DNA from: a virus | Virus record (IMG/VR): IMGVR_UViG_3300046167_000591 | Location: 1-58,240 of that record | Reading direction: 5' to 3' (one strand) | DNA: 58,240 nt | Shown: positions 5,938 through 42,963 of the stretch, piece by piece | Layout: each line of letters opens with the position of its first letter | How positions within the stretch are numbered: the first letter of the stretch is position 1 | Translations under genes and position numbers: made by a program | Notes under the pieces: model-generated | Databases searched by the model: none | Seen by the model: the letters and a program-made list of their open reading frames with translations, nothing else | What the model was told of the DNA's origin: nothing

Positions 5938-5951
5938 AAACACGTAATATT
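5938..5951 (+). promoter_or_regulatory. AAACACGTAATA box (copy 1 of 4)
   Basis: One of four intergenic copies of AAACACGTAA followed by an A/T-rich run, each upstream of a rightward gene (others at 40681, 43313 and 58052). It lies about 20 bp before the ATG at 5960. It could be part of a late promoter or a regulator site; its function is not shown by the sequence. Confidence 0.4.
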
Positions 5952-10396: not shown

Positions 10397-13300
10397 ATGG
10401 CAACTGATGTAAATTTATTCTTAGATAACATTTTTGGCGGTGATAACGACAAAAAGAAAGAAGAAGAAAAAAAGAAAAAAGAAGAACAAGCAAAGAAAAA
10501 AGACTCTGCAATGAGAGGTGTGGTTGCGGAGTCAACTGCAACTGCTGCACCTCAAATAAAAGATACGGCTTTACCTTCGGACGATGGTTTATCGGACTCA
10601 CAATCAGCTAAAAAACTTCTAGACGACTTATTTGCTGATTTAGACAAACCGGTTGAGCCTGCTGTAGAATACAAACCTATAGAAACTCAAAAAGCCCCAG
10701 CAATTGCTACTGTTAATTTAGAAAAACAATTAGCAGGAACTGGTTTTACAGTTAAAACAAAACAAGGGCTTAGAGGACAAACTGTAGAAATAACTTCACC
10801 TACAGGTAATACAAAAGATTTTCTTACACAAGACTATACTGTTTCGGCTACAGCGTTTGGCCCAGGGGCATCATACACTAATGACATTGAAGAAATGAAT
10901 TCATTTGTTAATAGTGAAATGCTTACAAAAAGCGCTAATGACTCAAGAAAACAAGAAGAAGACGATTTAAAACAAAACATTACCGAATACCTTGAAAAAG
11001 CAAAAGATTCAGGTGATATAATTAATTATGATTACTTTTTGCCAGAAATGTATGGCGGATCTGCAACAGCTTTAAGTCAAGAAAATTATGGTAATGTAAC
11101 ATTTGATAGCGTTTTAAAAGATTTTAAAAATTCTGAAGAGTATAAAAATTCTCAGTATGTCAATGAATTTAAGTTAGAAGATTTATTTATAACGCAAACT
11201 AAAACATTAGCTAATATAGATAAACAAGAGTTAAATACAGAACTTTTAGTAAGACAAGCCAACGCAGTTAAATTAACAGATGATCAGTTATTAGCAAACA
11301 AAGAAAAAGAATTACAAGGCACTAGAAATACTTTAGATAGAGAATATGTAGACTTAGTAGTTGAAATAGAAAGCTTAAAAGGTAAAACTGATCCTGAAAG
11401 TTTACAAAAACTTGAACAGCTACAAGAAAGACAAAAAAATCTTGTAGAAAACGAAGTAAAAATTCCATCATTTTTTGATTTATTTAAAGTAAACCCAGCA
11501 ACAGCTGGTTCAACTTATTTAGCAGCTTTATATACAAAAGCAACAAGTAAAGTAGGTGAAGAAGCTAAAATGTTATATGACTTAGATGGTAATTTACTTA
11601 TTGATACTAACCAAGATGCGGTAAGTACTTCCGATGCTGGTGTATCTGCTTCAAAATATGCTGGTAGCGATCAAGATTTTATTACTAATGAATATAACCG
11701 CAATTTAGTAAATTGGGGTAAAAGTGATATATTAGGAAGTGAAAAAATTAATGTACGTATTAATCAAGAATATGTACCATTTGCTTTTAACAAATATAAA
11801 GAAGAAGAGTTAGGAGTTTATAGCGTTCCTTTAAAAGAATTAGCTAAATACAGAAATAAACTTTTTTTAGGAGATAAAAATTTATTTGAAGTAATTCAAG
11901 ACCTTACTTCAGCTAAGCAAAGATTTGAAAACGAGGGTATAATACCTGAAGGTGAATTTGTATCTAACGAAGAAGAGTTATTTCAACTTGTAGATACTTA
12001 TGCTAGACAAAGAAAAGAAATAATATCTGATGCAACTGCATTAGAATCCATGCGTTATGGTTTTGATCCTGCTACTTTAGGTGATGATTCTTTAAACTTC
12101 ACTATGGATGTTACTAAAGAAGTTGTAGATAACTTTAAAAATTCTTTTGTTAAGACAGAAGATTTAGATAAGCCAATTACAACTACTATTCAAGTAAAGC
12201 AACAGTTAGCTGAAACAATACCCAATGATTTACAAGAATTAGGTATATCTGAAGAATATATTAAAACATTGAAACCAAGTTTAGCAGTAGGGGCTTTACA
12301 AGGTGTTGCTGGAATGTCTGAAGATTTAGTTGAGTTTGCATTATTTGATATAGCGGCAACCGCAGGCGAAGGCGCTATAGTCAAACTAGCTAGTAAAATG
12401 CCAAAAATAACAGCTGCATTAAAAGGCTCAAAACTTGTTTATAATGATAAGTTTAAAAATACCGCAAAAACAGCTTACGTTTTAGCAAAAGAAGAAGTTA
12501 AAATGAAAACTGTATTTGATGAAAACTATCACATGGGTGGTGGTGTTGCATTTGCTGGTATGGGTATGTTATCAAAAAAATACTTTCCGCTTAACTTTGG
12601 AGCAAATAGATTAAACACTTTAATGGGTGTACCAAAAGAAGGTGTAATATTTGCAACATCTTCTGAATTAGCTAAATTTACAGAAGGTGGTATTTCTTCA
12701 ATGGCTGGTGGTAAAACTTTTAAAAGACATTTAGATGAAAATTATTCTGACTTTGACGAAGTATCACGTGAATATTTAGGTAACATAATGTTTGGTAGTT
12801 TACTTAATATTAAAGGATTAAGTACAACAGCAGTAAAACGACTTTATAAAGGTGAAGCTCAATATGAATGGATGTCAACCAAGGCTATTGATAAACTAAA
12901 CAATACAGCTACAAAAAATATAAAATCGATTTCTGCTGAAATAAACGAAAGAGCAGAATTAGGAGATAAAGCAGAAGATTTAAAATCTCTTGAAGATAAT
13001 TTAATTAAAAACTGGAATGTATGGAATACAACCAGGTTTATACAAACAAACTTAAGAGATTTACAAGATTTAAGAAGCGGTGATGTAGAAAAAGTTACAA
13101 AATGGTATAAAAAATATCAAAAAGAAAATGTAGAAACATTAAGAAAAGTGTCTGGTAACGATGCTGCTCAAATTATTTATTCTACTGATGCTACTAGATT
13201 TCAACCAGGTGAGCAAGCTAAATATACATCAGATGGTAATATTGAGCTAAACATAAAAGCTATTGCCAATAAGAAAGAAGCTGCTGATCCAAATCTTGTA

Positions 13301-16300
13301 TCGCATGAAATGACGCATGCAATAACAGAAAGAATAAGTAAAAACAATCCTTTATTTTTAAAGAACTTTTACAACAAGTTAGAATCAGAGTTTCCTGAAT
13401 TAATTGCAGATATTAAAGAACAATATAAAGAAGAAATTGGAAAAGATCCTTCAATACTTGAAAAAGAGTTTATTTCTTTTGTTGCTCAAAGATTAGGTAA
13501 TAAAGAATTCTATAACAACTTTAGTGTTGTTTCTGAAGGTGAAACTACATTTTTCCAAAAAATAGCTAATTGGACAAAAAACTTTAATAAAGAAAATGTA
13601 GGATTCGACCCATCAATTGCATCTAAAAAAGATTTAGTTAAGTTTTGGGCTAATTTAAGTATAAAGCTAAATAAAAATACTTTAACCGCTTCTGACTTAA
13701 AAAAGCTTGAGCAATTAGGTTTATCTGAAGCATACGAAGTACCGGTTGAATCTAACGCTGAATCAAAAGATTTTAAAGCAAAAGATTTAGGTACTGATTT
13801 AGAACAAGCAAGAGACTTATTAGAAGTATATAGAGGTATAAAAGCAGCTGATACACCATTAGCAAAAAGAGCAATGGAAATTAGAGCTACTAATCCCGCT
13901 GTTGCTGAAAAAATGCTTGCTGACTCAAAAGATAAAGCTTTTGGTGAGTTAATAGTATCATTTGAACCAATGGTTAATAAAGAAGCTGGTCGTATTAATA
14001 CACAGTATGGTATTAGCAGAGAAGAAGCTGTTGCAGAAGTTCAAATAAACGCTATAGACTTAATTAATACATACAAGCCTTACTTAGCTATCATTGAAAA
14101 TGGAAAGTCTGTTAGCATCGCTGAAAAGGGTGTTAAAATGAAAAACATTATAGAAAGAGTTAATGCTGGTGAAATTTCATTTGATTTAAATAAACCAAAC
14201 CCTGTTGACCTTGCTGGTTATATTAGCAGAAACTTACCACTTAGAACAAATGCAATATACGCAAAGTATACAGAAGCAAACAAAGGCGGTGAGCTATTTA
14301 AAACAACTAGCATTGACGAAATACGTGAATTATCCGCTGATGATATTGCTGGATATGCTGGTGGCTCTGCTATGGAATCTACCGCCAAAGCTAATACAAG
14401 ATTGATTGAAGCTGTTGATGCACTTATTCCAGATGCTGTTAAAAGAAGCAATTACAATCAAGGTGTTATTGATTTAATGACTGAAGAAAACATTACAGAC
14501 TTTGGTTATCCTGCTGTAAAAGGAACTAATCCAGAAGCTATTATGGACGCTATGTCTGGTGGCAATCTTGTTGTTAAACCTAATGGCAAAATTAATAAAG
14601 CAAAAACTTTTGCAAACATTAGAGAATGGCTACGTAAAGATAACAATGCTAGTTTAATATATAAGTACTTTCCGCTTGGTGCTAAAAAACAAGCCGAAGG
14701 TTTAAAATCTGCTACTAAAGTAGCTAAGTCTATACTTAATAATTTTTATGAAAAAGGTGAAAGAGCTACTATGCTTGAAGGAACTGCCGCTGGTTTATCA
14801 GTACAAGAAAAAGTACCTTTTGATAGAAATAACTTTTTAGAAAAAGTAGGAGCTATAGGCAGCAAAGACAGAAACAAAGATACTTTACTTGAAGCAATAA
14901 TAAATGAAGTTGATAGATCAACAACAAATAGAGTTGTTAGAAAAGAACTTGAAATACAAGGTAAAGAAGATAAGCTATTACAAGAATTAGCAGATGGTAA
15001 GTCTGAAGATTTATTAGTAAAAGAACTTGACCCTGAATTTGAAAATTTAAGAATTCAATTAGCTGCTAACTTAGCTGTTGATAATATTGTCCTCAAAGCT
15101 TTTGATGAAGTTCTTGTAGATGCTAAAATGGACGACGCTATATTTAAAAAGTTTGCAAGTTTAAAAGGTGAAGAAAAAACAGCAGCTCAAGAAAAATATT
15201 TAAATGAGTTTGCAAAGCCTTTTGTAGCGCTTATGCCTAATGAATTTAAACAAGTATTAACTTCTCCTGGCGGAAAAGTACTAAATTCATTTATGGAAAA
15301 GTATTTATTGTATGGCAATAAAAGTAGAGGAGCCGGAGATTTAGGTACAAAAGGCGGACCTGGTTTTCAAAAGCAATTAAGAAATTTTTATGAAGATGCT
15401 AAAAAAGATACACAATTTCAAGAGCTTATTGACCCAAAAAGCAAAACTTACGATGTTGAGGTAGCCGAAGCTTGGAATGCTATCAAAGATAATTTAGAAG
15501 CATTTGAAGCAACTACAAGTACTCAAATAAATAAATATAACTTTGCTGGTGGAAAAGTTTTTGAAATAGCTGGTAAATCTAAAAATCCTGTTAAAGCTGG
15601 AAAAGAAATTGTAGCAGAACTTGATAGAATATATGGTGAAGGCAAAGGTGTTAAAACTTATGAAAAGTTAGGTAAGCTTACTCAAGATGTAGACTTTTTT
15701 ATGCAGCTTATGTTGAAAAAATGGTATGAAAGTGTGCCAGAAGGAGAATTAAAAGAAAAAGCTAAAGAAAACTTGTATTTATTAAAAACAGGCACTACAA
15801 ATGTATTAGAATCAGATAGAATTTTTGCACCATTAAGATATATTCAAGTTGGTGTTAAAAAAGCTTATTTAGAACATATAGTTTCATCTTTAGAAATATC
15901 TACAGCCAACTATATGGACATAATAAACGGTACTTTTAGCAAAGAATCTTTTGATGGTACCAGAAGCCTTTATTATACCGCTGCAATTAAACCGTCTAGT
16001 GCTAAATTGTTGGATAAAGTTTGGGGCAGTACTACAAATATAGCCTTGCATAGATTTTTTGCTGATCCTGAGTTAGCTAAAAATACTATAGACTTATATG
16101 CTCCTACAAAAAATAATACCCAGTTTAAAACTGTAGAAGAAAATTTAAATGCAATATACGGTAAACCGTTTGTAGAAAAACAATTTACTATAGCTAAAGA
16201 AGCAAAGTCATTGTATGAAAAGTCTATGGATTTGTCTTCAAAAGATTTAAGCAAAGACCCTATAAGTGATTTAGAATCTATAGCTCGTATGTCAAATGTA

Positions 16301-18906
16301 GATGTTGCTCATGATTTAGCAAGAATCAGAAACAAGAAAAATAAAGGTATTAGTGTTTTTGATTTTGATGATACACTTGCTAGAAGTAAATCTAATGTAT
16401 TATATACAATGCCTGATGGTAGAAAAGGGAAACTTAATGCAGAAGAGTTTGCTAAAAGAGGTGATGAACTATTAGCTCAAGGTGCTGTTTATGATTTTTC
16501 TGAATTTAAAAAAGTAATGCAAGGATCAAAAGGACCTTTGTTTGAGTTAGCTAAACAACGTGGTGAAAAGTTTACAACTAAAGATGTATTTGTATTAACA
16601 GCTAGGCCACCTGAAAGTGCGGTAGCAATACAAAAGTTTTTAAAAGAATCTGGTTTAGATATTCCTTTAGAAAATATTACAGGTTTAGGAAACTCTTCAG
16701 CACAAGCTAAAGCAGACTGGGTTGTAAATAAAGCTGCTGAAGGTTATAATGATTTTTACTTTGCTGATGATGCTATTAAAAATGTTAAGGCTGTTAAAGA
16801 TGCTTTAAGTGTTTTAGATGTTAAGTCCGATGTACAACAAGCATTTGCTGCTAAAGATTTAAACAAAGAGTTTAATAAATTAGTTGCATCAAAACTAGGT
16901 ATTGCTCCAAGTAAAAATATAAGTAAAGCTAGAGCTGAAATGTTGGGTAAAAAGAAAAAAGGCACCTGGTTTATTCCTTATTCCAATGAAGACTTTATGG
17001 GATTAATGTACCCTTTATTTGGCAAAGGCAAAAAAGGTGATGCTGATGTAGAATTTCTTAAAGATGCTTTAGTAAGACCTTTTGAAAGAGGTGAATATAA
17101 TATTTCAAAAGAAAGAGCCACGCTAGCTAGAGACATGTCAGCATTAAAAGATCAAACAAAAAAGTTAAACCCAGGCACAACTAAAAAACTAAAAAATACA
17201 GTTGACGAAGCTTTTACTGCAGAGCATGCTGTTAGAGTTTATATATGGGGTAGACAAGGTATGGAAGTACCTGGCCTTAATAAAAAAGATATACGTAAAT
17301 TAACAAACTACGTTAAAGCAGATAAAGATTTAGTTGAATATGCTGAAAACTTAATGTTATTAGGTAAAAGCAGCAAATACCCTGAGCCAACTAAGTATTG
17401 GGCCGGCGGCAATATATCAAATGACTTTAGAAACAGTTTATTAACTACAAGAAGAAAATATCATTTAGCTGAGTGGATTCAAAATAAAAATGAAATATTC
17501 ACGCCAGAAATGTATAATAAACTTGAAGCAACTTTTGGTAAAGGATATGTTGAAGCTTTAAAAGAATCTTTAGCTGCAATGGAAAGAGGTAAAAATAGAC
17601 TGCCTAGTAAAAATAAACAGTTTGATAAGTATTTAGATTTTGTTAATGGATCTGTTGGTGCTGTAATGTTTTTAAATACTAAATCCGCAGTGTTACAAAC
17701 ATTGTCAACATTAAACTATTTAAACTGGACAGATAACAATCCAGCTGCGGCTGCTAAACAATTTGCAAACATACCAAAGTTTTCAAAAACGTTTATGGAA
17801 TTATTCAATTCTGAATATTTAGTTAATAGACGTGATGGTTTAAAAATCAATGTAAGTGAAGCTGAACTTAACGATGTTTTTAAAGATAGAAATAAAGTTG
17901 AAGCATTTTTTAACTTAATGATTAGAAAAGGTTTTGCTCCCACAAGGTATGCTGATTCTTTTGCAATTGCATTAGGTGGTTCTAGTTTTTATTTAAATAG
18001 AATAGAAACTTATAAAAAGAATGGTTTATCTGAAGCTGAAGCTAAAAAAGAAGCATTTGTAGACTTTATGGAAACATCAGAACAAAGTCAGCAGTCTTCA
18101 AGAACAGATAAAATTAGTCAAGAGCAAAGAGGGCATTTAGGACGTCTTATTTTGTCTTTCGCTAATACACCAATACAATATAATAGATTAATGAAAAAAG
18201 CTATTATGGACATTAGAAATGGTCGTGGCGATGTTAAAACAAATGTTTCTAAAATATTGTATTACGGCGCTGCTCAAAATATTATATTTTCTACTTTGCA
18301 GTCAGCTTTATTTAGTATGTTTTTTGATCCAGATATGGACGAAGACGATAAAATGGAAAAATATGTAAAAGTTGTAAATAGCACTTCTGATTCTTTCTTA
18401 CGTGGTTTAGGTGTTGCTGGCGCTACTGCGGCAATGCTTAAAAATGTTGGAATCAAAATATACCAAGAGCATCAAAAAACAAGACCAGAATATGATAAAG
18501 CAGCTTTAGAAGTACTAAGTATTTCGCCGCCTTTAGATTCTAAGATCACTAAGTTAATGCAGGCTGGTAAAATATTCATGTATGAAAAAGATGCAATACA
18601 AGAAGAAGGGTGGTCATTAAATAACCCTGCTTGGCAAGCTGGTGCAAAAGTATTTGCGGCTGGTACTAACGTAGGTGTTGACAGGTTTTTTATTTTTAAA
18701 GAACAATATGAAAACCTTACGGATGATAATCTAGCAATGTGGAAAAGAATATCGCTGCTGGTGGTTGGCAGAATTACGAATTAGATATTGAAAGAGATGA
18801 AAGAAGATTACCACTTAAAAAGCCTTATAATCCATTTAAAATAAGATTAAAAGATGCTACTAAGCCAAAAATAAATTTAGATTTAAATATAAAACTTAAC
18901 TACTAA
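10397..18906 (+). CDS. Giant internal virion protein with HExxH and HAD-phosphatase motifs, C-terminal frameshift
   Basis: About 2835 residues if a one-base loss near 18755 is corrected; as written the frame stops at 18784 (2795 residues), but the next frame continues as GGWQNYELDIERDERRL up to taa at 18904. Visible parts: a Lys/Glu coiled segment at residues 15-35; a zinc-protease motif HEMTH at 970-974 with a possible third ligand in EKEFISF about 50 residues on; a segment at about 1180-1320 resembling sigma-70 region 2; a complete HAD-type set with FDFDDT at 1988-1993, the FVLTARPPES motif about 75 residues later and FYFADDAI near 2115; and a C-terminal part (about 2560-2720) with a hydrophobic stretch. 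Giant multi-domain ejected proteins of this type are known from marine phages; which domains act in the host is unknown. Confidence 0.75.
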
Positions 18907-28059: not shown

Positions 28060-28368
28060 TTAAAATGGTAAATCGTCGTCTTGTGGTTGACTAACCGCGG
28101 CTGGTTGCTGTTGACCATCACGTGGTGCAGCAGCTACATTATCGCCGTTGGTCCAAACAACTTTTACATTACCTAAATAAGTTTTAGCAGCTTTCGCTTC
28201 TCTTTCTTCTTTAGATTGTTCAACAATTATCGGTCCTTGGTTACCGAACTGATCAACTTCATCATTTAAAGTGATTACTAGGCTAAGATATTTACCCTTT
28301 TTTCCTTGGTATATCTTGTCTTTTGGGATTGCATCTAAGTTGATGCTAGTTTTAATAATACTTGCCAT
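28060..28368 (-). CDS. Single-stranded DNA-binding protein-like
   Basis: 102 residues with a beta-rich first half (KGKYLSLVITLNDEVDQFGN) and a disordered Gln/Pro-rich linker ending in DDDLPF, which closely resembles the acidic C-terminal tip that bacterial SSB proteins use to recruit partners. It lies between primase-helicase and exonuclease genes. An OB fold is inferred, not shown. Confidence 0.65.
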   Translation of the reverse strand: MASIIKTSINLDAIPKDKIYQGKKGKYLSLVITLNDEVDQFGNQGPIIVEQSKEEREAKAAKTYLGNVKVVWTNGDNVAAAPRDGQQQPAAVSQPQDDDLPF

Positions 28369-29660: not shown

Positions 29661-30422
29661 TTAGAAATAATCTAAAACTTCAGCTGGATTTACATTATCA
29701 ATTAATTTTTGAACTGCTTGCTTTTTAATTTCAGATACTCTAACGTAGGCGCTAGCTCCTTGAATATCTAATCTTTCAGCAATAGCATTTGCACCGTGCT
29801 TATCGCAATCCAGTCCATAACTTAATCGTAATACTTCATACTCTCTGTAGTCTAAGTATTTCTTTAACAACCCCATGAGATACTTATTTAATATCCCAAT
29901 ATTATAGTTCTCAGATTTATCTTCAATCTGGTACATTGGTGAATCAAAGTCGTCTTCATCACCAATCCTTTCATCTATACTTAAGAACATAGAATTAAAA
30001 AACAAGCGCACCAGCTTTTTATCTTTGCCAGCATCTTTTCTTATTTGTAATAGCTTATGCTCTGGTATTTTAATATTACCCCTATTAATGTCAATAGCAC
30101 GTCTTATCGAGCCCTTAATTCTTTTTGATAGGAAACTCTTAATTGTTTTTTCAACGTCATCAGATCGATTTATTTCAGTCCATATAATTTTATCAACCGC
30201 TCTAACCAATCCAACATTACCTTCTTGTATTAGATCGTTAATACTTAATACCCCAGACGCTTGTTCACTAGTTGCAAACTTTCTTGCAATGTTTTCTACA
30301 AGTGGCATAAACTTTATTATAAGTTCATCTCTAGTATATTCTTGCCATTCATTATCTGCAGGCATACAGGTCTTAAGATCATCTTTATATCTTAGGTAAT
30401 TTTTAACATTATACTTTTTCAT
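29661..30422 (-). CDS. Phage sigma-70-family factor
   Basis: 253 residues. Region 2 is clear: FMPLVENIARKFATS, then INDLIQEGNVGLVRAVDKI, then FLSKRIKGSIRRAID. A region-3-like linker includes NIKIPEHKLLQIRK. Region 4 is YREYEVLRLSYGLDC followed by ANAIAERLDI and a recognition helix (SAYVRVSEIKKQAVQ). It should redirect host RNA polymerase. It is encoded downstream of the leftward cassettes headed by the repeated 37-bp element, so it could act on those promoters or on the rightward late genes; the sequence does not decide. Confidence 0.85.
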   Translation of the reverse strand: MKKYNVKNYLRYKDDLKTCMPADNEWQEYTRDELIIKFMPLVENIARKFATSEQASGVLSINDLIQEGNVGLVRAVDKIIWTEINRSDDVEKTIKSFLSKRIKGSIRRAIDINRGNIKIPEHKLLQIRKDAGKDKKLVRLFFNSMFLSIDERIGDEDDFDSPMYQIEDKSENYNIGILNKYLMGLLKKYLDYREYEVLRLSYGLDCDKHGANAIAERLDIQGASAYVRVSEIKKQAVQKLIDNVNPAEVLDYF

Positions 30423-31038
30423 TAAGTTGACGATTTAATAATTCTTTTTCTTTTTTAAGCTCATTGCTCATATTTCTATGTATTGTTCTTGTAGAGCAAT
30501 ATAACAATGTAGCCAGTTTAGAAACAGTAATTTTATTATTATCGTCGTGCAACATAATCATGGCGTCATATATTTCAACATCACCAATTTTTTTACGACC
30601 TATTATACGACCAACAATACTTAGCTTTTCAGAAACAGTTAATCCACTGTTGTCTTTAAATATGATTTTTCTAAGTTTATTTTTAGGTGGTCTATCAAGA
30701 TCTTGCATGCTAACTTCATAGATTATATTCTCTAAAGTTAATTTAGGTATTGTGAATGTAATAAAACCATTTGACTTATTCACTATAAAATCCACTAAAT
30801 TTTCAAAATCAGTTTGATCAAGCTGTGGATTAAGATACCATAATACATATAAATGCCATTTCAATGACTTATAAGTATTAATCTTAGCTTTGCTGTTAAA
30901 TAAAGAATAACATTGATAAGTACCTTCTTCATAGTAATAACCCCAAGTATAAACCGTAGTAGGCTTATCAGTAGCTGGATCTCTTCTATAAATTATTCTG
31001 TTCTTAATTAAATATGTTAAATCTCTATTGTGTGACAT
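30409..31038 (-). CDS. HTH regulator / replication-initiator-like protein
   Basis: 209 residues. The C-terminus has a helix-turn-helix (KITVSKLATLLYCSTRTIHR). The N-terminal 120 residues are aromatic-rich and unassigned. It overlaps the sigma-factor start by 14 bases, so the two regulators are translated together. It might be a transcription regulator or an origin-binding protein; the window has no other obvious initiator besides the MarR-like protein at 45157. Confidence 0.6.
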   Translation of the reverse strand: MSHNRDLTYLIKNRIIYRRDPATDKPTTVYTWGYYYEEGTYQCYSLFNSKAKINTYKSLKWHLYVLWYLNPQLDQTDFENLVDFIVNKSNGFITFTIPKLTLENIIYEVSMQDLDRPPKNKLRKIIFKDNSGLTVSEKLSIVGRIIGRKKIGDVEIYDAMIMLHDDNNKITVSKLATLLYCSTRTIHRNMSNELKKEKELLNRQLNEKV

Positions 31039-37660: not shown

Positions 37661-37697
37661 AATATCAATATTCAATCGTATTTGGTTTGTAAAACCG
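37661..37697 (-). promoter_or_regulatory. 37-bp leftward promoter element, copy 7
   Basis: Consensus block, 46 bp before the ATG at 37614; behind it lies the 320-bp gene-free stretch. Confidence 0.75.
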
Positions 37698-38335: not shown

Positions 38336-38376
38336 AATTATTTATTTTAAGTTATTATTTATTTTGTGGTGTATAG

Positions 38377-39120: not shown

Positions 39121-39174
39121 TGGTGCACTGGTTTAGCGTTGGCGAGTGAGCAAAGCGAACGAGAGCATGAGCGC

Positions 39175-39200
39175 GACAGCGTCTCTGCTATACACGTTAT
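39175..39200 (+). repeat. 26-bp block, copy 1 (behind promoter 9)
   Basis: GACAGCGTCT then CTGCTATACACGTTAT; 22 of 26 positions match 40209-40234. Both copies lie about 35-70 bp behind a 37-bp promoter element, so they might be activator or operator sites. Confidence 0.6.
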
Positions 39201-39875: not shown

Positions 39876-39912
39876 TTAATATCGATTATACTTCGTTTTT
39901 AGTTTGTATTTT
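39876..39912 (-). promoter_or_regulatory. 37-bp leftward promoter element, copy 10
   Basis: Consensus block with one base change; lies between the start at 39853 and the stop at 39920. Confidence 0.75.
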
Positions 39913-39919
39913 ATATATT

Positions 39920-40114
39920 TTAAAATTCTGAAATATATAGTTTTAAATAATTATTTTTAGTTATTTTTTTAATTAGTTTTAAATCTTTTGAAGATATTAA
40001 AATGGAATTTTTAAATTTAATTGGACTTTTAGTTATATTATTATTATTTATAATTAAATTAAATAATATTGAATTAAAGTTTTTAGAAGTTGAAATTTTA
40101 ATTAATTTAGACAT
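39920..40114 (-). CDS. Asn/Lys/Ile-rich protein (64 residues)
   Basis: Extremely AT-rich gene (MSKLIKISTSKNFNSILFNL). It is the first gene of the leftward arm, 25 bp after promoter copy 11, so probably the earliest expressed. The low complexity leaves some doubt that it is translated. Confidence 0.5.
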   Translation of the reverse strand: MSKLIKISTSKNFNSILFNLIINNNNITKSPIKFKNSILISSKDLKLIKKITKNNYLKLYISEF

Positions 40115-40139
40115 AGTTTATATATTTTTAAATTCAATA

Positions 40140-40176
40140 TTAATATCAAAAATACTTCGTATTTAGAGCGTATTTT
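40140..40176 (-). promoter_or_regulatory. 37-bp leftward promoter element, copy 11
   Basis: Consensus block, the outermost leftward copy, facing away from the ACGTA array. Confidence 0.7.
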
Positions 40177-40208
40177 TTGAATTATCAAGAGCCTCGCAGA
40201 GAGCAAGA

Positions 40209-40234
40209 GACAGCGTCTTTGCTATACATGTATT
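40209..40234 (+). repeat. 26-bp block, copy 2 (behind promoter 11)
   Basis: GACAGCGTCT then TTGCTATACATGTATT; partner of 39175-39200, in the same orientation and similar distance to a promoter element. Confidence 0.6.
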
Positions 40235-40238
40235 CCGT

Positions 40239-40571
40239 ACGTAAACCGAACGTAACGAACGTAATAGGGAACGTACCAGACGTAACGAACGTAAACCAGA
40301 CGTAACAGACGTAACCTGAACGCACGAAACGTAAACGTAAACGTATCAAACGTACGAAACGTATTGGTAACGTAACAGATGTTTGGTGACGAACGTAACG
40401 AACGTACAGGTTTGGTCCATCGCATGTAGTGAGGTCAGGATCACGGCTGCAGGCACAGGATGCCGGCTGTAACGTGCGGAACGTAAACAGACGTAGCAGG
40501 TCGCGCGCTGGGAAAAGCTGAAACCTGGCCAGGAAAACGGACGAAACGTAAAACAAAACGCCCGAAACGTA
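40239..40571 (+). repeat. Directional ACGTA repeat array (candidate origin or regulator-binding array)
   Basis: Twenty copies of ACGTA in 333 bp, 16 of them in the first 176 bp, mostly as GAACGTAAC, AGACGTAAC or AAACGTAAA at spacings of about 6-20 bp. About 0.3 copies are expected by chance. The region is gene-free, GC-richer than its flanks and lies at the divergence of the two gene arms. Apparent leftward reading frames here (about 40185-40650) are by-products of the repeat. Confidence 0.75.
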
Positions 40572-40680
40572 CAAAAACAGGGGGACTGGGTCGAAACGAA
40601 ACGGTTTTCGGATCCGAGCGCGGCTTCCAAAAATACAATATAACCCCCAAATCCTCTATATCTAATGTAAATTCACCTCA

Positions 40681-40694
40681 AAACACGTAAATAT
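40681..40694 (+). promoter_or_regulatory. AAACACGTAA box (copy 2 of 4)
   Basis: Lies about 40 bp before the ATG at 40721 and just right of the ACGTA array; a TACGTAAATGG follows at the start codon. Candidate control site of the first rightward gene. Confidence 0.4.
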
Positions 40695-40720
40695 ATCTAT
40701 TATAGTAAAAATATACGTAA

Positions 40721-40966
40721 ATGGCTCAGAAATTAAGTAAAAAAGCCGCTACAGCTAAGAAAGTACGCGATTTAAAGACGGCAAATACGACTAGAAGAGC
40801 TACAATGCGAGCAGAAAACCAAAAAGCAAGGCGTGCAGCGATAAAAAAGCACGGTAAAGACTGGCTTAAGGGTAAAGATTACGACCATAACTGTAAATGC
40901 TTCGTATCTGTGAAGAAAAACAGGGGTGGTTATGGAAAAGGAACTAAAAAATATAATACAAAATAA
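40721..40966 (+). CDS. Small basic protein (81 residues)
   Basis: Lys/Arg-rich helical protein (KKAATAKKVRDLKTANTTRR) with a C-terminal Cys pair (NCKCF) and Gly/Lys tail. First gene of the rightward arm. The composition suggests DNA or RNA binding; I recall similar basic proteins in marine phage genomes without function. Confidence 0.6.
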   Translation: MAQKLSKKAATAKKVRDLKTANTTRRATMRAENQKARRAAIKKHGKDWLKGKDYDHNCKCFVSVKKNRGGYGKGTKKYNTK

Positions 40967-40975
40967 AAAAGTAAG

Positions 40976-42963
40976 ATGGCGATAATATACAGTTTTCCAA
41001 AAAAATCATCTTTAACCGGTAACGAGATTGTTTTAATAAGTGATGTTGATGCAGTTGGAAATCCTTCTAGGAACGCCACTATTAGCACGATAGCTTCTCA
41101 TACCATAGATGTTTTTTCCGACATTAGCGCATACAGAATACCTGTAGCAACTAGCGGATCTAAAATAGTTAACGGCTTGTTGTATCAAGATACAGCTCAA
41201 GCGTCTGGAACAACTCCTACGGGTTCTATTGTTTATTTAAACGATGGTTCAGGTAATGGTAGTTTAGAAGTAATACAGGCAATCTCTGCTGGTACTACAG
41301 TTGCAGTAGGTACTAACTTAACAGTTGGTGGTACAGCTACAGTTACAGGTGATGCTACAGTAAATGGTAAAACCACAACTAATGGTACATTGTCATTAGC
41401 AGGGCCCTATAAATGACTCTACAGACACAACAGGTGATACAGATCAGTTACTAAGTTCAAACGCATCAGGTGAAGTAATATGGAAAGATGAAGCGGATTT
41501 AAATGTACACTCTTCACAAAAAGTAATACAAACAGTAAGATTCAGTGAAGCGGTATCAAAAGGTGACCCTGTATATATAGATACGTATAATGTAGGTCAA
41601 GGCATACAAGTTGTAGGTAAAGCAGATGCTTCTGATCCAAACAAGATGCCGGCCTATGGTATTGCTAATGAGGACTATGGTATAAATACCAATGGCGAAA
41701 TAACCGCTATAGGATCATTCAATGGTACATTTGATACTTCAGGGCTTATTGAAAAATCAGTGGTGTATGTTTCACCAGGTGGTGGTCTTACATCAATAAA
41801 ACCTATAGGCACTAACTTAATACAAAACATTGGATTTTGTTCAAGATCAAATGCAAATAACGGTGAATTAGAAGTTGTTGCAGTTGGTAGAACAAATGAT
41901 TTGCCAAACCTGCAAGAAGGATATATATGGAAAGGTGATGCTAACGGTGTGCCACAAGCAGTATCTGAATTAGCTAACTCACCGTGGGAACAATCAGGAA
42001 CAGCTATTATTAAACAAGGACGTGATGAAGCGAACTACGGCACGCCAGGTGCTGATGCAATAGACGGTAGTAATTCTACAAGTGCTTCTGCAACTAAAGG
42101 TGCTACAGGCGCTGATTCTACAGCTTTTGGTAAAAATACAACAGCAAGCGGTATTGGTTCAACAGCTATAGGTAATTTTAGTGTAGCAAGTGGAGATTAC
42201 TCTACAGTTTTAGGTACCACACATACAGCTAGTGGTTATGCTGCTTTTGCTGCTGGTAATGCAAATACAGCTTCTGGTAACGAATCCATTGCAATGGGTA
42301 GAAACACAATAGCATCAGGAAATCAGTCTCTCGCAATAGGCGACAATGTTGAAGCTATTAGTACCGGCTCTATAGCAATAGGTGATAAAGATGTTGCTCT
42401 TAAAGGTATTTCTTCAGGGATTGTATTCATTAATGATTGGTAAAAATGGTTTAGCTAGCGGCAATTATTCTATAGCTATAGGTCTTGCAAATAACGCAAC
42501 AGCTAGCTATGCTTTAGCAACCGGTCAAAACTCTGACGCATCAGGCCTTCATGCTTTTGCTCACGGTCTTAACTCAACTGCATCCGGTTCTAGATCATTC
42601 AGTAATGGATGGGGTACTACAGCTTCAGGTGCTAACGCTTGGGCTGGTGGTAAAGATTCTACCGCTTCTGGAGACAGATCATTTGCTTTCGGTTTAGAAG
42701 TTAACGCGGATGATGCTAACATGGTTGCTTTTGGTAAATACAATAAACTAAACACAGGTAACAACTCTGTATTCCAGGTTGGTGTTGGCGCAAGTGATGT
42801 AGCAAGAGATAATGCTTTTGATATTCACCAAAACGGTACAATACTAATGTCAGTACTGCAGCAATCAACATCTTATGCAAACGATGGGGCTGCACAATCA
42901 GGAGGTGTTCCAATTGGTGGTTTATATAGAAATGGAAACGTTGTACAAATAAGAATTACATAA
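40976..42963 (+). CDS. YadA-like tail fibre / adhesin, two one-base frameshifts
   Basis: About 660 residues once one C of CCC at about 41404 and one G of GGG at about 42418 are removed. The N-terminus (about 1-130) is Thr/Gly-rich beta. Residues about 350-600 are a run of head repeats such as STAIGNFSVASGDYSTVLG, SIAMGRNTIASGNQSLAIG and NGLASGNYSIAIGL, the left-handed beta-roll repeat of YadA and other trimeric adhesins. A C-terminal domain follows. Such proteins likely form trimeric fibres contacting the host surface. It lies far from the tail genes, just before groEL. Confidence 0.75.

Follow-up and report, generated by a model that had tools for sequence, protein, structure and literature searches.

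A dense cluster of the word ACGTA lies where the leftward and rightward genes of an uncultured virus diverge, and the question it raises is whether this cluster serves the control of transcription, the start of replication or the packaging of the genome, or has no such role. The window analysed here is the whole linear virus record of 58,240 bp. Its leftward genes, which span 40.1 to 20.5 kb, encode, among other proteins, ribonucleotide reductase, thymidylate synthase, a T7-type primase-helicase, an exonuclease, Erf and a sigma-like factor, while GroEL/GroES, terminase and portal are found among the rightward genes. Terminase identity to the window is 69-75% in uncultured relatives, 63% in MW202828, the closest named relative, 44% in Elemovirus and 36-39% in Cellulophaga phages. 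The virus is a flavobacterial-type podovirus, and its hosts are flavobacteria-like bacteria. Two of its proteins stood out during the survey: a 2795-aa protein of the late region (10397-18784) without any Pfam or PHROGs match, and, beside the primase-helicase, a 102-aa protein (28060-28368) that ends in an acidic DDDLPF tail, resembles single-stranded DNA-binding proteins and has no convincing Pfam match.

Small early genes are preceded by a promoter-like motif, TACAAACTAAATACGAA-N5-ATTGATATTA when read leftward, present in 11 near-identical copies between 32570 and 40170, and its position and repetition suggest that these copies are promoters. An interpretation of this motif as a DnaA-box was dropped, as in the window it reads TTAATATCAAT. 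The array had been placed by an earlier, sequence-only reading between the outermost leftward promoter and the first rightward gene, and the map agrees with this (Table 1). Two GC-rich patches, at 39140-39200 and 40190-40235, are similar to each other, and each adjoins a leftward promoter and ends in GACAGCGTCTnTGCTATACAyGT; the sequence TGCTATACA also recurs at hairpins, for example at 38370.

Table 1. Features of the early/late divergence region and the candidate binding proteins (window coordinates).
Feature	Coordinates	Strand	Remarks
Phage sigma-factor-like protein	29661..30422	-	homologue in 11/11 relatives checked
209-aa protein, weak HTH_11 match	30409..31038	-	beside the sigma-like gene
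Outermost leftward ORF, 64 aa	39920..40114	-	downstream of the last early promoter
Last (outermost) leftward early promoter, putative	40140..40170	-	TACAAACTAAATACGAA-N5-ATTGATATTA
Variable GC-rich spacer	40171..40543		from last early promoter to conserved element
ACGTA array	40239..40571	+	20 exact directional copies
Conserved non-coding element	40544..40666	+	A-rich block, G-tract GGGGGACTGGG at 40580, 3' end ATAACCC..CCTCTATATCTAA
Late box AACACGTAAATATATC and second ACGTAA (40715)	40683..40719	+	just upstream of the first late gene
First rightward (late) gene, conserved basic 81-aa protein	40721..40966	+	

The array is real and far beyond chance. Against an expectation of 0.36 from base composition, its 333 bp hold 20 copies of ACGTA on the + strand and, at their left edge, a single - strand copy; when the whole window was dinucleotide-shuffled 100 times, no more than 4 copies per 333 bp arose. 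The word was picked once the array had been seen; no 5-mer cluster in the genome was stronger than that of ACGTA, which scored 60.9 versus a best shuffled score of 18.8 for any word. The second strongest cluster of the genome, ten copies of TACAG at 41132-41460, overlaps a gene (40976-41416). Sixteen ACGTA copies make up a dense block (40239-40406), mostly 9-12 bp apart, and the other four are scattered (40481, 40491, 40546 and 40567), the last two falling within the conserved non-coding element. Spacings between successive copies are 11, 9, 12, 9, 9, 11, 9, 20, 6, 6, 9, 9, 11, 23, 9, 79, 10, 55 and 21 bp. As had been claimed, the region is GC-richer than the genome (0.49 versus about 0.33) and holds no credible gene, the open frames on the - strand at 40185-40650 being rejected as an artefact of scarce stop codons. 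The single orientation of the array was likewise borne out, but its description as mostly G(A)ACGTAAC units was not: strict units account for about 5 of the 20 copies, ACGTAA for 13 and a preceding A for 15, and only ACGTA is invariant.

This contrast between word and flanks bears on how the array is maintained. The flanks match their own consensus at 0.54 on average, while the five ACGTA positions are invariant in all 20 copies, and one-mismatch copies outside the exact ones number 6-7 versus about 4-6 by chance. A decaying repeat with flanks this relaxed should consist mostly of mutated words; since few are seen, recognition of ACGTA is favoured, with the reservation that the word was selected after the array had been noticed. 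An ordinary tandem repeat or minisatellite was rejected, given spacings of 6 to 79 bp and one-mismatch copies scarcely beyond chance. An exact word within relaxed flanks is also what an operator array displays, and the pattern favours binding sites, which would be expected to look like this, over decaying satellite DNA.

Relatives were found with the 81-aa protein of the first late gene as anchor. In most of them a short spacer of about 10-110 nt separates the conserved element from the last early promoter and no array is present, so that the array is not essential to the family; the spacer of the window, expanded by the array, measures about 370 nt and that of locus L162 about 300 nt. Long spacers carry differing repeats, namely GACCA (L162), TGTCA (L017, L174) and CCAGG (L148), and the divergence of MW202828 bears repeats of the CGCGT type together with ATGTCGATT in four exact copies. 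In the early region of this last genome (locus L113, 604-2758), a perfect palindrome, TGTCGTTAACGACA, occurs seven times. The ACGTA version was in no other stored virus: an exact 17-mer scan gave eight matches, none of them such an array, and a flexible ACGTA-array scan gave 30, none with the conserved element, the eight inspected lying mostly inside open frames in unrelated phages. Conservation of the ACGTA array in relatives, one of the checks named by the sequence-only reading, was thus not found; what is shared is its position, a conserved site at which a subset of relatives carry arrays of another word, and its neighbourhood. Breaks no more than about 850 bp ahead of the first late gene were more frequent than expected among contigs of 47-61 kb (L015, L018, L028, L144, L162 and L197).

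The chief alternative array follows the plan TGTCA-N3-TGTCA-N10-TGTCA-N3-TGTCA, with a fixed 8-15-8 spacing. Among 225 loci fetched independently of this pattern, it is intact in three; the best match carries one mismatch in a single locus and two mismatches in none. The loci L017, L174 and L176, obtained by protein search, keep every TGTCA word unchanged but vary in the 3-bp spacers, and L068 has one mismatch. A scan of the collection returned 36 contigs, most of which belong to the same family and have the element, identically oriented, on the downstream side; exact words were part of that query, so that word conservation in this set is by construction and the unbiased test of constraint is that of the 225 loci. 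The TGTCA arrays of related uncultured phages (L017, L174, L176, L206-L236) resemble that of the window in their position between last early promoter and element, in their directional short words with variable spacers and in their orientation. They differ in their word, in their fixed spacing and in being AT-rich and shorter, and they are known from sequence alone. The two kinds of array are linked by place and form, not by sequence. Elemovirus and the Cellulophaga phages phi13:2, phi18:3 and phi38:1 share with the window leftward early genes, rightward late genes and the same element between them; the scans made reported no ACGTA array at their divergence and, unlike the TGTCA-array relatives, elemoE and phi13:2 have no TGTCA pair 8 bp apart.

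This element, missed in the earlier reading, precedes the first late gene and consists of about 124 nt common to relatives (A-rich block, G/C tract, ATAACCC and CCTCTATATCTAA). A model built from 38 relatives, with the window left out, gave a single match in the 58 kb (40546-40665, E 2.5e-08), and it found the element in dozens of relatives. It also matched elemoE (7e-06), elemoB and elemoF (both 1e-05), phi18:3 (4e-05), phi13:2 (0.0027) and, weakly, phi38:1 (0.019). In each of these cultured phages the match falls where early and late genes diverge and is on the strand of the late genes, and no match was obtained against reversed sequences. An Rfam search of 39.5-41 kb gave nothing. As alifold predicted no structure on the + strand and, on the - strand, a weak stem derived from a dyad, the element was treated as DNA. 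No description of it was found in the literature, within an incomplete library.

The array word was compared with the sites that precede late genes. Four intergenic CACGTAA boxes are present, as had been noted, at 5941, 40684, 43316 and 58055. The proposal that one protein binds both these boxes and the array is weak, since every one of the four boxes has a C before ACGTA and no array unit among the 20 does. In many relatives, a dyad, GTGACATTAGC..GCTATTGTCAC, which is absent in the window, precedes the first late gene, and its arm is TGTCA, the same word as in their array. A co-variation of array word and dyad in L162 (ACGAC) was within chance.

Taken together, these sequence comparisons lead us to think, with middling confidence, that a sequence-specific DNA-binding protein recognises the array, a group of sites peculiar to this lineage within the control region from which early and late genes diverge, and that this protein most likely helps to set the early-to-late switch. 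This reading draws on the position of the array, directly beside the last of the 11 early promoters, and on the recurrence of the relatives' array word at the late-gene dyad. With the array just upstream of that leftward promoter, and the conserved element and then the first late gene on its other side, the protein might bind cooperatively along about 170-330 bp of array and so shut off the outermost early promoter, assist late transcription, or both. Multi-site phage operators and stoperators have many short asymmetric sites, with a specificity that varies between relatives, and the array is like those of, for example, mycobacteriophage L5 in both respects. It is unlike L5-type stoperators in that all sites lie in one control region and in that the genes searched yielded no recognisable integrase or repressor.

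A replication origin, in which the array would provide iterons for a phage or host initiator, the stretch 39880-40170 the unwinding region and the element a part of the origin, is a possible though doubtful explanation. It would account for directional short repeats, spaced 9-12 bp apart and clustered in non-coding DNA, beside the conserved element at the divergence and next to a strongly AT-rich stretch (39880-40170), which, however, holds a small ORF and a promoter. The array shares clustered directional repeats near AT-rich DNA with iteron origins such as those of plasmid Rep/iteron systems and the lambda ori with its O protein. Classical iterons have long conserved units of about 18-22 bp, whereas only 5 bp are conserved here and no initiator was recognised. 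Initiator-iteron pairs often differ between relatives, as the array words do, and some cultured cousins have annotated initiator or DnaA-like genes; against this, a search of the window for the Bac_DnaA_C domain found none, and no other initiator family was recognised among the early proteins searched, where small genes without assigned function remain. The GC-skew shift predicted at 40.2-40.7 kb did not appear either: the cumulative minimum lies at 37,676, 2.6 kb away, and the skew tracks gene direction. Moreover, most relatives have no array at this spot, and the recurrence of TGTCA in the dyad at the late promoter points to transcription. If there is an origin here, the conserved element is the better candidate for its essential part, and the roles of switch and origin could coexist. 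Of the earlier proposal, then, the divergence point, an array beyond chance and its behaviour as a site cluster stand, while the skew shift and the conservation of ACGTA itself are unsupported and the shared protein has weak support.

It is unlikely that the array is a neutral or nearly neutral expansion, in a spacer that tolerates short repeats arising by slippage and unequal exchange. Fast turnover of this kind would explain why different relatives have different words, and words and lengths do vary widely (ACGTA, GACCA, TGTCA, CCAGG, CGCGT); several near-complete contigs break near the array spot, L197 within its repeat-rich spacer, and the window has another GC-rich repetitive patch at 39140-39186. 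However, exact words within variable flanks in the window, and a fixed 8-15-8 plan with intact words in diverged relatives, speak against it. That the terminase recognises the array as a physical genome end or packaging signal is very improbable. In relatives, contig ends do concentrate in the 1.5 kb or so before the first late gene, but they scatter by hundreds of bases, and four of the six contigs examined have their far end at another place in the early region, which fits assembly breaks; the window itself reads through the array. Physical ends were rejected, as the contig ends lie near the site yet not at one position.

The obvious phage candidates for the protein that would bind the array are the sigma-like product, which might also read early or late promoters, and the neighbouring 209-aa HTH protein, which may be the array-binding protein and has homologues in 9 of the 11 relatives compared. 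No gene was present in all relatives compared and missing only from the window. A 55-aa candidate, found in 9 of 12 and absent from the window, was discarded, since it was also missing from two relatives and so did not fit the pattern sought cleanly.

We propose tentatively, and as an idea that may well prove wrong, that the control locus of this widespread group of flavobacterial-type podoviruses consists of the conserved element and an exchangeable array module, whose word (TGTCA, ACGTA, GACCA or others) would be replaced between lineages together with a putative DNA-binding protein. If this is true, the control specificity that lytic phages carry at their early/late switch or origin differs from lineage to lineage. 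Phages with this early/late divergence are common and aquatic, and the element, common to uncultured relatives and to cultured Elemovirus and Cellulophaga phages, offers a concrete place to seek the start of replication and the transcription switch. The changing arrays beside it are a natural experiment on shifts of specificity in phage control proteins and in the DNA sites that go with them.
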